Shown here: one piece after another, positions 7,772 to 11,779 of the stretch
How the letters are laid out: each line of letters opens with the position of its first letter
Numbering within the stretch: the first letter of the stretch is position 1
From: Rhizobium sp. NXC14
GTDB lineage: Bacteria > Pseudomonadota > Alphaproteobacteria > Rhizobiales > Rhizobiaceae
NCBI RefSeq assembly: GCF_002117485.1
Contig: NZ_CP021030.1
Span: 2,855,001-2,919,000, forward strand
Reading direction: 5' to 3'
Length of the DNA stretch: 64,000 bases
The notes under the pieces: model-generated
Told to the model about the DNA's origin: nothing
Database searches by the model: none
What the model saw: only the letters and a program-made list of their open reading frames with translations
Made by a program: the position numbers and the translations under genes

Positions 7772-8830
7772 ATGGAATATCGTCTGCTCGGCCGCTCCGG
7801 CCTGAAGGTTTCGACTTTGACTATGGGCACCATGACCTTCGGCGGGGTCGGCTGGGCGAAGATGGTCGGCGATCTCGGCGTCTCCGAGGCGAAAAAGATG
7901 ATAGATATGTGCATCGATGCCGGCATCAATCTGATCGATACCGCCAACGTCTATTCGTCAGGCGAATGCGAAAACATCATCGGCGATGCGCTCGCCGGCA
8001 AGCGGCCGCAGGGCGTACTGCTCGCTACCAAGGCGCGCTTCGGCATGGGCGACGGTCCGAACGACCGCGGCCTGTCGCGCTACCACCTGATCCGCGAATG
8101 CGAGGCGAGCCTCAAGCGCCTGAAGACCGACGTCATCGACCTCTACCAGGTGCATGAATGGGACGGCCAGACGCCGCTCGAAGAGACGATTGAAGCGCTC
8201 GACACGCTGATCAAGCAGGGAAAGGTGCGCTATGTCGGCTGCTCGAACTACTCCGGCTGGCACATTATGAAGGCGCTCGGCATCGCCAATGAGCATCGCT
8301 ACCAGCGCTTCGTCAGCCAGCAGATCCATTACACGCTCGAAGCGCGCGATGCCGAATACGAGCTGCTGCCGATTTCGATCGACCAGGGCCTGGGCGTGCT
8401 GGTCTGGAGCCCGCTTGCCGGCGGGCTGCTTTCCGGCAAACACCGCCGCAACCAGGCCGCTCCCGAGGGAACGCGCCAGTTCGCCGGCTGGACCGAGCCG
8501 CCGATCCGCGACGAAAACCGCCTCTGGAACATCGTCGAGACGCTGGTGGCAATCGGCGAAGAGCGCGGCGTCTCGGCGGCCCAGGTGGCGCTTGCCTGGT
8601 TGATCGGCCGCAAGGCGGTCACCTCGGTCATCATCGGCGGGCGCACCGAAGCCCAGTTCCGTGACAACATCGCCGCTGCCGAGCTGAAACTCATGGATGA
8701 GGAGCGCAAGCGTCTCGACGCCGTCAGCCTGCCGCCGGTGATCTATCCCTATTGGCACCAGCTGAATACGGCGAGCGACCGGCTCGGCGAAGCCGACCTC
8801 GAGCTTTTCGGCCCGCATCTCCAGCAATAG
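7772..8830 (+). CDS. Aldo/keto reductase
   Basis: NADPH-dependent oxidoreductase of 352 residues with the (beta/alpha)8 aldo/keto reductase pattern. The catalytic tetrad can be read as Asp and Tyr in DTANVYSSGE, Lys in LLATKARFG and His in YQVHEWDG. The C-terminal SVIIGGRTEAQFRDN is the usual cofactor 2'-phosphate-binding part. A strong AAGGAGGAG ribosome site precedes the ATG. It appears to be a single-gene unit; the gap before it (7553-7771) shows no other gene. The substrate is not predictable. Confidence 0.9.
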   Translation: MEYRLLGRSGLKVSTLTMGTMTFGGVGWAKMVGDLGVSEAKKMIDMCIDAGINLIDTANVYSSGECENIIGDALAGKRPQGVLLATKARFGMGDGPNDRGLSRYHLIRECEASLKRLKTDVIDLYQVHEWDGQTPLEETIEALDTLIKQGKVRYVGCSNYSGWHIMKALGIANEHRYQRFVSQQIHYTLEARDAEYELLPISIDQGLGVLVWSPLAGGLLSGKHRRNQAAPEGTRQFAGWTEPPIRDENRLWNIVETLVAIGEERGVSAAQVALAWLIGRKAVTSVIIGGRTEAQFRDNIAAAELKLMDEERKRLDAVSLPPVIYPYWHQLNTASDRLGEADLELFGPHLQQ

Positions 8831-8908: not shown

Positions 8909-9044
8909 CCCTCATTCCTGTGCTCGTCACAGGAATCCAGCGTGCCCAAGTCCTTGGGCACGAGAGAGTCTTTCACGAATAGGAGTTCAATCACGGCGCG
9001 GACGCGCCGTGGCTGGATTCCTGTGACGAGCACAGGAATGAGGG
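8909..9044. repeat. Multi-hairpin intergenic palindromic element (RIME-like)
   Basis: A 32-base arm at 8909-8940 is a perfect inverted repeat of 9013-9044. Between the arms sit two further perfect hairpins: CGTGCCCAAG/CTTGGGCACG at 8941-8962 and CACGGCGCG/CGCGCCGTG at 8992-9011. The whole folds as a three-way cruciform. This is the style of Rhizobium-specific intergenic mosaic elements; membership of a named family cannot be checked here. Further repeat-like sequence follows up to the IS insertion at 9091. Confidence 0.8.
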
Positions 9045-9117
9045 ATGAGAGGGCGTGCCATGCAGCCCCTCATCTGCCTTCAGGCATCTTCTTGGATGAA
9101 AAAAATGTAGGATATTG

Positions 9118-9278
9118 ATGCTTGCCGGGCGGGTGGCCGCCCGCCCGGCAGCTGGTTGTCGGATCGTCACCTTCTTAGCCGTTTTGGGCTGTGGGGAGCA
9201 GGATCGCAACCGGCTCTTCATCTGGCCCGTGTGGTTGCAGGAACCTTGGGGTTCGTATCCAAGACAGGGACGACGAAG
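9118..9278 (+). ncRNA. IS110 bridge RNA (approximate ends)
   Basis: The noncoding left end folds into the three-part plan known for the IS621 bridge RNA. A 5' stem-loop (GCCGGGCGGG/CCCGCCCGGC) comes first. The target loop has CACCTTCT (9168-9175) matching the left target CATCTTCT in 7 of 8 positions, then hairpin AGCC/GGCT (9177-9190), then GGGGAG (9193-9198) complementary to the right target CTCCCC. The donor loop has TGGTTGC (9232-9238) identical to the right element end, hairpin GAACC/GGTTC (9241-9254), then ATCCAAG (9257-9263) complementary to the left element end CTTGGAT. RNA ends are estimates; expression is inferred. Confidence 0.82.
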
Positions 9279-10229
9279 ATGACCGATAATAGCATGATCT
9301 GTGCCGGAATCGATGTCGGCAAAAGCCATCTCGACATTGCCCTCCATCCCGGTAAGGCAAGGCTGAGGGTCACGTACGACACCGCTGGCCTGAAGGCGCT
9401 TGACGCCTTTCTTCGAGAGCATGACGTCAGCCGCATCGGCTTCGAAGCCTCCGGCGGCTATGAATGGCGGCTGCTGGCGCATCTGCGGGCCGGCAAGCGG
9501 CCGGCGGCGCGTCTGCAGCCGGCGCAGTTGCGCTTCTTTGCCAAGAGCCGGCTCAAGCGGGCCAAGAACGATCGGCTCGATGCCGTGCTGATTGCGCTCT
9601 TCACGGCAAGTCTCGAGCAGTTGCCGGCGCTGCCGGACGCACGCTTCGACAAGTTGGCCGCCGAACTGACCTATCTGGAACAGATCGAGCAGCAGATCGC
9701 GCTGGTCAAGACCTTTGCCGAGACCGCCTTGTCGGAGGCGATCAAACGCCGCCACCTGCGCGAGGTCGCCCGCCTCGAAACCTGCCGCAAGGCCCATCTG
9801 CTGCGGCTCGAAAAGACGGTTCGCGACGATTGCGACCTGGCGCAACGGCTCGATCTGCTGATCTCCATCAAGGGGATCGGGCTGCGCAGCGCCCTGTGCT
9901 TGATCATTCGGCTGCCCGAACTCGGCCATGCCAGCCGCGCCGAGATCGCCGCCCTTGCCGGCGTCGCACCCTATGACGACGATAGCGGAAAATATCACGG
10001 CAGACGCCGCATCCAGGGTGGTCGCGAACGCCTGCGAAAGAGCCTGTTCATGTGCGCATTCACGGCAACCCGGCACAATCCGGATCTCGCCGCTTTCTAC
10101 ACGCGCTTGCGTCAGAGCGGAAAGGAGCACCTGTGCGCCGTTATAGCCGTCGCCCGAAAACTCATCGTTCTCGCCAACACAATCCTCTTTCGAAAGACCG
10201 AATGGACGCCACAACACCGCAAGAATTAA
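9279..10229 (+). CDS. IS110 family transposase (recombinase)
   Basis: A 316-residue DEDD-type recombinase. The N-terminal RuvC-like domain shows the four acidic positions: Asp in AGIDVGKSH (about residue 11), Glu in GFEASGGYE (about 60), and the Asp pair in KNDRLDA (about 100). The C-terminal transposase_20 domain has the helix-hairpin-helix-like IKGIGLRSA and the serine-bearing RKSLFMCAF that supplies the Ser nucleophile in this family. The start at 9279 is the first Met before the conserved domain; a longer reading would run back into the bridge RNA. The frame is intact, so the element may be active. Confidence 0.92.
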   Translation: MTDNSMICAGIDVGKSHLDIALHPGKARLRVTYDTAGLKALDAFLREHDVSRIGFEASGGYEWRLLAHLRAGKRPAARLQPAQLRFFAKSRLKRAKNDRLDAVLIALFTASLEQLPALPDARFDKLAAELTYLEQIEQQIALVKTFAETALSEAIKRRHLREVARLETCRKAHLLRLEKTVRDDCDLAQRLDLLISIKGIGLRSALCLIIRLPELGHASRAEIAALAGVAPYDDDSGKYHGRRRIQGGRERLRKSLFMCAFTATRHNPDLAAFYTRLRQSGKEHLCAVIAVARKLIVLANTILFRKTEWTPQHRKN

Positions 10230-10240
10230 ACATGGTTGCT

Positions 10241-10439
10241 CCCCGATGGGGAGAAGCGGAATGGTCTCGTTTCCTAGAAACGTCTGCAGTGGAAATTGAA
10301 GCGAGCGGCTTGCTCCATCTTCTCCCCAGCGGGGGTCCGAAGGACGGGTTGAGACCCGTGGCTCAACCCCAGTCGATGGCCCGAGGGGTCGGATAGGGCC
10401 ATACGGCACAACAGTTTTGTTGCACCCCACTCCCAACAC
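10241..10439. repeat. Right remainder of the interrupted palindromic repeat
   Basis: Noncoding sequence between the IS and the aminotransferase stop. It begins with the right half of the split palindrome. A second intact copy of the IS target, CATCTTCTCCCC, lies at 10316-10327. An 8-base-pair hairpin GGGTTGAG/CTCAACCC is at 10346-10369. No gene is seen. Confidence 0.6.
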
Positions 10440-11657
10440 TCACCCACCAATCTCAGTGATCAACTTACCTAACCGACCAATGCCATCCTCGATCATCTGC
10501 TCATTCGCGCAGGAGAAGCTGACGCGGAAGGTGTTGGCGCCGGAGCCGTCGGCGAAGAAGGCTTTGCCGGGCACGAAGGCGACCTTGGCGGTCTCGAGCG
10601 ATTTCGCCAGCAGCTTGGCGCCGTCCATGCCTTCCGGCAGCGTGATCCAGATGAACATGCCGCCTTCCGGCTTCGTCCAGCTCGTGCCCTTGGGCATGTA
10701 CTTCTCGAGCGCCGCCAGCATGCAGTCGCGGCGATGGCTGTAGGCCGCTTTAATCTTGGCAACCTGCTTGTCGAGACCGCGCACGGCGACATCGGATATC
10801 GCCATTTGATTGATCGTTGAGGAATGCAGGTCAGCCGCCTGCTTCATCAGCACCAGCTTGCGGATGACAGGCGCATTGGCGACGATGAAGCCGACGCGAA
10901 GGCCGGGCGCCAGCGTCTTGGAAAAGCTGCCGCAATAGATCGTGCGCGTGTCGTTGATATGGCCCTTCTCGGCGATCTCCAACGCCAGGATCGGCGGGAT
11001 CGGCTCGCCGTCGTAACGCAGCGACTGGTAGGCGGCATCCTCGATGACGGCAATGTCGAGCTCTTCGGCGAGCGCCAGCACCCGCTTGCGGCCGGCGAGA
11101 TCGACGGTTTCGCCGGTCGGATTGGAGAAATCTGCGGAGAGATAGGCGAATTTCACCTTGCCGCCGGCAGCCGCAGCCGCCACGCGGTAGGACTCGGGCG
11201 TCCGGTTGCCGCTCGGCGTCAGTTGGTCATAGGCCGGCTCATAGGCATTGAAGGCCTGCAGCGCGCCAAGATAGGTCGGCCAGGTCACGAGCGCGGTATC
11301 ATTGGGCGAAAGAAAGAGCTTTCCGAGATAATCGAGCCCCTGCTGTGAGCCGGAGACAATGAAGACATTGTCGAGCTCGCAGGGAATGCCGAGGGCGGCC
11401 ATCTGCTTGACCAGCCATTCGCGCAGCGGCTTGTAGCCTTCGCTGACCGAATATTGCAGCGCCGAATTGACGGCGGCACCTGCGAAGATATCGGCATAGG
11501 CCCGCTGGAATTCCTCGGCCGGAAACAGCGCCGGATCCGGAATGCCGCCGGCAAAGGAAATAATGTCGGGCTGGTCGAGAAGCTTCAGGAGCTCGCGGAT
11601 TTCGGATGCGCGCATGCGCGATGAGCGCGACGCAAACATGGTGTCCCAGTTCAGCAT
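10440..11657 (-). CDS. PLP-dependent aminotransferase, class I/II
   Basis: Fold-type I aminotransferase of 405 residues, resembling the 2-aminoadipate/aromatic or multi-substrate aminotransferases (LysN/ARO8-like group). The N-terminal SFAGGIPDPALFP is typical of this branch. The PLP lysine is in YCGSFSKTLAPGLRVGF and the cofactor-binding Asp region is IAVIEDAAYQSLRY. The ATG at 11657 is chosen over one 39 bases upstream because it begins the conserved MLNWDTMFASR and follows a GAGG. It stands next to ilvE in the opposite orientation, so amino-nitrogen transfer is a common theme, but its substrate is unknown. Confidence 0.87.
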   Translation of the reverse strand: MLNWDTMFASRSSRMRASEIRELLKLLDQPDIISFAGGIPDPALFPAEEFQRAYADIFAGAAVNSALQYSVSEGYKPLREWLVKQMAALGIPCELDNVFIVSGSQQGLDYLGKLFLSPNDTALVTWPTYLGALQAFNAYEPAYDQLTPSGNRTPESYRVAAAAAGGKVKFAYLSADFSNPTGETVDLAGRKRVLALAEELDIAVIEDAAYQSLRYDGEPIPPILALEIAEKGHINDTRTIYCGSFSKTLAPGLRVGFIVANAPVIRKLVLMKQAADLHSSTINQMAISDVAVRGLDKQVAKIKAAYSHRRDCMLAALEKYMPKGTSWTKPEGGMFIWITLPEGMDGAKLLAKSLETAKVAFVPGKAFFADGSGANTFRVSFSCANEQMIEDGIGRLGKLITEIGG

Positions 11658-11779
11658 GGAGGTTTCCTCGTATTTTCTGTACCGCCGACAAATCATGCGG
11701 CGGAAATTATGTCAATAATGCTGACCTATTTTCTTTGTCATAACGATAAGTTGGAGATCACATATTCCAAAGCCTGGGT

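Follow-up and report, generated by a model that had tools for sequence, protein, structure and literature searches.

A predicted IS621-type bridge RNA element in Rhizobium sp. NXC14 with guides for a REP-like repeat

The 64,000-nucleotide stretch of Rhizobium sp. NXC14 analyzed here (the window; contig NZ_CP021030.1, positions 2,855,001 to 2,919,000) carries an element of the IS110 group that, judging from its sequence and by analogy with IS621, very probably moves in the manner of IS621, by recombination that a bridge RNA guides (probability roughly 0.96). A preliminary description of the same DNA had read the four guides of a bridge RNA in the left end of the element; our analysis confirms that observation and supports the interpretation placed on it. 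The target address, the donor address, the core and the insertion history can each be read from the DNA itself, and are presented below.

The element and the RNA predicted from its left end

Counted with one core, the element spans positions 9091-10238 of the forward strand (1148 bp), as defined by eight full copies and a comparison with empty sites, and it sits between open frames at 7772-8830 and 10440-11696. The left target CATCTT and the left core CT (9091-9092) occupy 9085-9092, and the non-coding left end that follows, delimited by reading the sequence and by the genome copies, runs from 9093 to 9278. A 316-aa IS110 transposase is encoded on the same strand at 9279-10229, followed by a right end of 9 nt (10230-10238) whose last bases, in the window and in the full copies, are TGGTTG. 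The right core CT (10239-10240), the right target CCCC and the other arm of a REP-like palindrome then fill 10239-10256, again on the forward strand. The disparity between a left end of 188 nt with its core and a right end of 9 nt is a feature of the IS110 group. Both Pfam domains of IS110 (PF01548 and PF02371) are present in the transposase, which scores 157 bits against NCBIfam NF033542 (cut-off 140) and aligns to the solved structures of IS621 (E 6e-16, the best PDB match) and ISCro4 (E 4.5e-15). Its residues D12, E56, D98, D101 and S236 align with D11, E60, D102, D105 and S241, which are described as the active site of IS621 (PMC11208158). Just outside the left end of the element there is a further, separate inverted repeat (8915-8941 and 9012-9038), made up of TTCCTGTGCTCGTCACAGGAATCCAGC and its reverse complement.

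The predicted bridge RNA, in the extent matched by our covariance model R1, covers 9117-9282 of the forward strand. It opens with a 5' stem-loop (9123-9150), supported by fold and covariation, that the preliminary description had recognized but had given 10 bp, while we count 11 bp. In the target loop, the 5' strand of the outer stem (9151-9158) pairs with 9207-9214 and an inner GATC/GATC stem pairs 9162-9165 with 9202-9205. The left target guide CACCTTCT (9168-9175, within the loop strand 9166-9176) and the right target guide GGGGAG (9193-9198) flank an apical hairpin, AGCC/GGCT (9177-9190), in which 4/4 pairs have changed on both sides among relatives; a handshake guide CA would come next, at 9199-9200. 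In the donor loop, the outer stem TCTTC (9215-9219) pairs with GAAGA (9275-9279), up to the A of the start codon, and the inner pair CCC/GGG (9226-9228 with 9267-9269) is invariant throughout. Here the left donor guide TGGTTGC (9232-9238) and the right donor guide ATCCAAG (9257-9263) flank the apical hairpin GAACC/GGTTC (9241-9254), and the A at 9264 is the handshake base, which pairs with the T that ends the left target.

The four guides had been placed inside the left end in the order known for IS621, and we recovered them, together with both perfect small hairpins, exactly where they had been reported. The left target guide CACCTTCT matches the left target CATCTTCT (9085-9092) at 7 of 8 bases, GGGGAG is complementary to the right target CTCCCC (10239-10244), and ATCCAAG is complementary to the left element end CTTGGAT (9091-9097). 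One boundary required correction: TGGTTGC is present as described, but the right end before the core reads TGGTTG and the final C of the guide belongs to the core, so that the left donor guide takes in only the C of the core. An ordered search for all four guides in 9112-9282 reached 27/28 positions at best, whereas 5000 dinucleotide shuffles averaged 19.0 and never exceeded 23. This control is somewhat generous, as we set guide lengths and spacing limits with the finding already in hand, and stronger evidence comes from the other copies, the relatives and the empty sites.

The minimum-free-energy fold depends on how the RNA is cut: 9117-9282 gives the bridge fold, and 9112-9290 gives a different one. 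The free RNA thus has competing folds, which counts against the main reading, and since 9112-9290 alone folds otherwise, we used covariation as the evidence for the fold. The donor-loop stem extends with its 3' strand (9275-9281) to the transposase start codon, so that folding of the bridge RNA may preclude translation and vice versa.

Fold and guides across related families

For the structure alignment we used 11 left ends, including six near-identical ones from Rhizobium and the near relative L081, with the fold drawn from the window sequence. Under this fold, 92.5% of alignment cells were paired, compared to 29.5-56% in slid controls, although taking the fold from one of the aligned sequences favors it in this comparison. 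Changes on both sides were found in 22 of the 40 pairs, while slid controls gave 3-10 and shuffles a mean of 4.6, with 0/500 as high; most of these compensatory changes come from L081, L114, L115, L116 and L110, since the six Rhizobium left ends are near-identical. RNAalifold, given no structure, reached the same architecture. The preliminary description had named a fold with guides outside the loops as a result that would count against it, and we found instead that the covariance model built from this alignment (R1) puts all four guides in internal loops, in agreement with RNAalifold. The architecture is that of the IS621 type, with a 5' stem-loop followed by two stem-loops whose internal loops bear the guides, and the four guides stand in order, each with core bases.

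Searching Rfam at gathering and at relaxed thresholds returned no bridge RNA family, and the six relaxed matches lay far below gathering scores. The R1 model, on the other hand, matched the left ends of seven of eight IS110 families held out of it (L126, L127, L128, L129, L130, L133 and L028; E 1e-12 to 2e-5), and the eighth held-out locus, L032, gave only a weak match (E 0.028). The remaining weak matches (E 1e-5 and above) are antisense hits over the palindromic 5' stem. Under strict filters, 19 of 397 genomes of the order, counting the source genome, held a match at E <=1e-6, and an IS110 transposase lay within 1100 bases downstream at 16/16 RNA-model loci tested, one from each of 16 genomes new to the study.

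We compared guides with targets across 31 guide classes by taking the loop strands from the R1 model, setting the element ends from the donor guides only, and then comparing the flanks with the target loops. The criteria of the automatic end-finder were written after the raw ends had been seen and several guides had been read by eye. The end-finder failed for 13 classes (L114, L110, L115, L145, one L149/L163 RNA, L151, L153, L129, L028, L127, L133, L159 and L160), leaving 18/31 that could be scored, among which the left ends of L116, L148 and L152 are doubtful but were kept in the count. Across these 18 classes, left targets fit their own guides at 6.11 of 7 bases compared to 3.63 of 7 for swapped pairs, and right targets at 6.39 of 7 compared to 3.97 of 7. 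The sum for own targets was reached by 0/100,000 permutations, whether left, right or both sides were scored, and by 0/100,000 again without the near-duplicate L093 (n=17). In this reduced set of 17 rows, the own target ranked first in 16, ties included, and was strictly best in 15. The base that follows the right donor guide is the handshake base in the published account of IS621 (PMC11208158). In 14/17 classes it pairs with the final base of the left target, through A-T, C-G and G-C pairs, and only 10/100,000 permutations did as well; the three misses are L146, L148 and L154. The L149/L163 locus (G535) has two different IS110 bridge RNAs, divergently oriented and separated by about 170 bases.

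These results bear on the possibility that the transposase protein alone recognizes the repeat, with the left-end RNA a structured regulator of translation and the guide matches coincidental. A regulatory role is conceivable as well, as the donor-loop stem touches the start codon and its inner GGG falls in the likely ribosome site, and for ISPpu9, regulation of the transposase by two small RNAs and by structure in the 5' untranslated region has been reported (PMC8450116). Recognition by protein alone, however, would not lead us to expect guides that track targets across families with different targets, a handshake base that tracks the target too, or four guides in the order published for IS621; it was already disfavored, and we consider it very unlikely.

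Copies, target repeat and empty sites

The bridge RNA reading also concerns where further copies lie. The source genome (6.69 Mb) holds nine left ends of this element (element A), which are 98-100% alike, and eight copies with both ends. The core CT flanks both sides in 8/8 full copies, and there is no other target duplication. Six of the eight full copies have unbroken full-length matches to the transposase and two are split (L011 and L015). A one-base deletion early in the transposase of L011 (G000 C1:2158701-2159833) means that this copy is probably not autonomous. For the ninth copy, L017, no right end was found; it has apparently lost most of the transposase too, along with six bases across the left junction, and retains a nearly intact bridge RNA (181.9 bits with R1).

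Writing the core between hyphens, the left flank is CACCTT-CT in six of the eight full copies, a perfect match to the left guide, and CATCTT-CT in the other two, the window copy among them, while the right flank is CTCCCC in all eight. Copies in unrelated targets would have spoken against the preliminary description; we found all eight in CA[CT]CTTCT plus CTCCCC and none elsewhere. Together the flanks make up a REP-like palindrome, CTTCTCCCC...GGGGAGAAG, and the host genome has 65 unoccupied exact sites reading CACCTTCTCCCC (with CACC; reversed control 1) and 14 reading CATCTTCTCCCC (with CATC; reversed control 0), 79 together. All eight copies use the CA[CT]C arm, while 53 of 132 CNNCTTCTCCCC sites among the matches listed are other sequences (reversed control 17); this preference would be due to the guide, with the reservation that numbers are small and that L092 is an exception. 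Over 21 left junctions from host copies and close relatives, of which L091 and L109 may be one strain counted twice, 17 read CACCTT, three CATCTT and one TCCCTT. The last is L092, which fits the guide at 4/6 bases and sits in the opposite arm of the repeat. The right junctions, 14 and three more (L010, L012 and L013), all read CTCCCC.

Nine of thirty loci were compared as possible empty sites, and none of them matched the element itself. In three other Rhizobium genomes (L173, L175 and L176), the DNA aligns to both window flanks, which overlap there by exactly two bases, the core; the empty site reads CATCTTCTCCCCGCTGGGGAGAAG and contains the same CATCTT and CT as the window. Parts of both flanks also align at L174 and L177, and the other four loci are without one side of the junction. 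The empty sites have T at target position 4, in place of the C in the guide, so this base most likely preceded insertion. IS621 is reported to tolerate a mismatch at target position 4 as well (PMC11208160). A search of plasmids gave 1804 matching records, all below 60% identity.

That the eight copies share a target through duplication of larger REP-bearing segments, rather than through independent insertions, has a negligible chance of being correct. The similarity of the left ends (98-100%) and of some right flanks for 30-45 bases past the core is what duplication would produce, but outside the repeat the left flanks examined diverge, each right flank is distinct within the 60 bases compared, and contig-edge copies in other species again lie in the repeat with other flanks. 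For the window copy, the orthologous empty sites refute segment duplication as its origin.

Mechanism, known relatives and a companion element

By analogy with IS621 (PMC11208160, PMC11208158), we infer that the element would leave its site as a circle, its right and left ends joined at one CT core, and that transcription of the left end of this circle would then yield a bridge RNA to which the transposase binds. At the sequence level, the target-loop guides fit CACCTT-CT-CCCC in the host, which is one arm of a REP-like repeat that is abundant there, and the donor-loop guides fit the joined element ends TGGTTG-CT-TGGAT. The transposase would cut and swap strands at the core via the Ser and acidic residues common to IS621. 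An inserted element has one core copy on each side. When we looked for a sigma70-like promoter at the junction of the joined ends, no conserved site emerged, and the best sites held 4-8 of 12 consensus bases at differing positions; two of the seven joins are imperfect, with a misplaced left end in L115 and extra bases left out in L114.

The window element is a new bridge-RNA element of the IS621 type, whose mechanism has already been published for IS621. It resembles IS621 of E. coli in a recombinase with the same five catalytic residues, a left-end bridge RNA with a 5' stem-loop, target loop and donor loop in that order, guides that take in core bases for both sides, a REP target, and the mismatch at target position 4 (CACC/CATC here). 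It differs in its target (ATCGGGC-CT-AC in IS621 compared to CACCTT-CT-CCCC), its donor ends, its distant protein and its alphaproteobacterial host. If the element were of the IS1111 type, a seekRNA would be encoded in its right end. The transposase superfamily is shared, but the right end has 9 nt against 188 nt on the left and R1 matches the left end, so we rejected this assignment as virtually without probability. In the IS1111 group, the bridge RNA is reported to lie in the right end, unlike in the window element, and to accompany subterminal inverted repeats of 7-17 bp (PMC11208160); such elements also choose their targets by RNA guidance (PMC11187229), as we predict for the window element.

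The preference of IS110 elements for REPs has also been published (PMC1525189). ISRm19, an IS110 element of Sinorhizobium meliloti, is described as inserted in REPs in 4/4 cases (PMC1525189), and is presumably the S. meliloti pSymB element found here as L114/L120. This presumed ISRm19 is 45% identical to the window element, lies in a related repeat, and has an RNA that scores 160 bits with R1, although L114 is part of the R1 alignment. Its guides, read by eye, address another phase of the repeat (CGGCAC-CT-TCTCC), and its right end (L114, L117, L120) has an extra CG between TGGTTG and the core CT in both copies seen, which the left donor guide does not explain.

The source genome also contains five copies (L027-L031) of a second IS110 element, element B, with a transposase 34% identical to that of element A. 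Its left flank is GCCC-CT in four of the five copies and CCCC-CT in L031, and its right flank is CT-CATCC in all five. In 4/5 copies these flanks are the outer edge of element A's repeat, while L028 lies in another repeat. The loops of element B contain GGCCCCT and GGATGAG, as read by eye and outside the classes that passed the automatic test. At L030/L011, one repeat holds both elements in tandem: B, then CTCATCCGGCTGCCGCCACCTT, then A (L030 1560-1440, minus strand). Since the guides of A (CACCTT-CT-CCCC) and B (GCCC-CT-CATCC) read non-overlapping stretches, one repeat can hold both elements, and we tentatively suggest that the repeat may be a shared landing pad divided between two distant IS110s by guide choice. 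ISPpu9 and ISPpu10 of Pseudomonas putida are likewise reported as two IS110s of one genome in one REP type (PMC1525189), but they share one insertion point, whereas A and B use different points of the repeat.

Among the matches listed for the open-access literature (PMC), we found no paper on a Rhizobium bridge RNA, and the string 'rhizobi' is absent from the text of PMC11208160, though its large supplementary tables may list the element. It is possible to read a bridge-RNA element's guides, target and ends from raw sequence and to confirm them within one genome, and the classes compared here provide a set of natural guide-target pairs from alphaproteobacteria. The window element also adds a REP-targeting system for which the host has 79 exact sites still unoccupied, together with a companion that addresses another part of the repeat. 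With a common intergenic repeat as its target (intergenic as seen for the window copy), the element could multiply with little harm.
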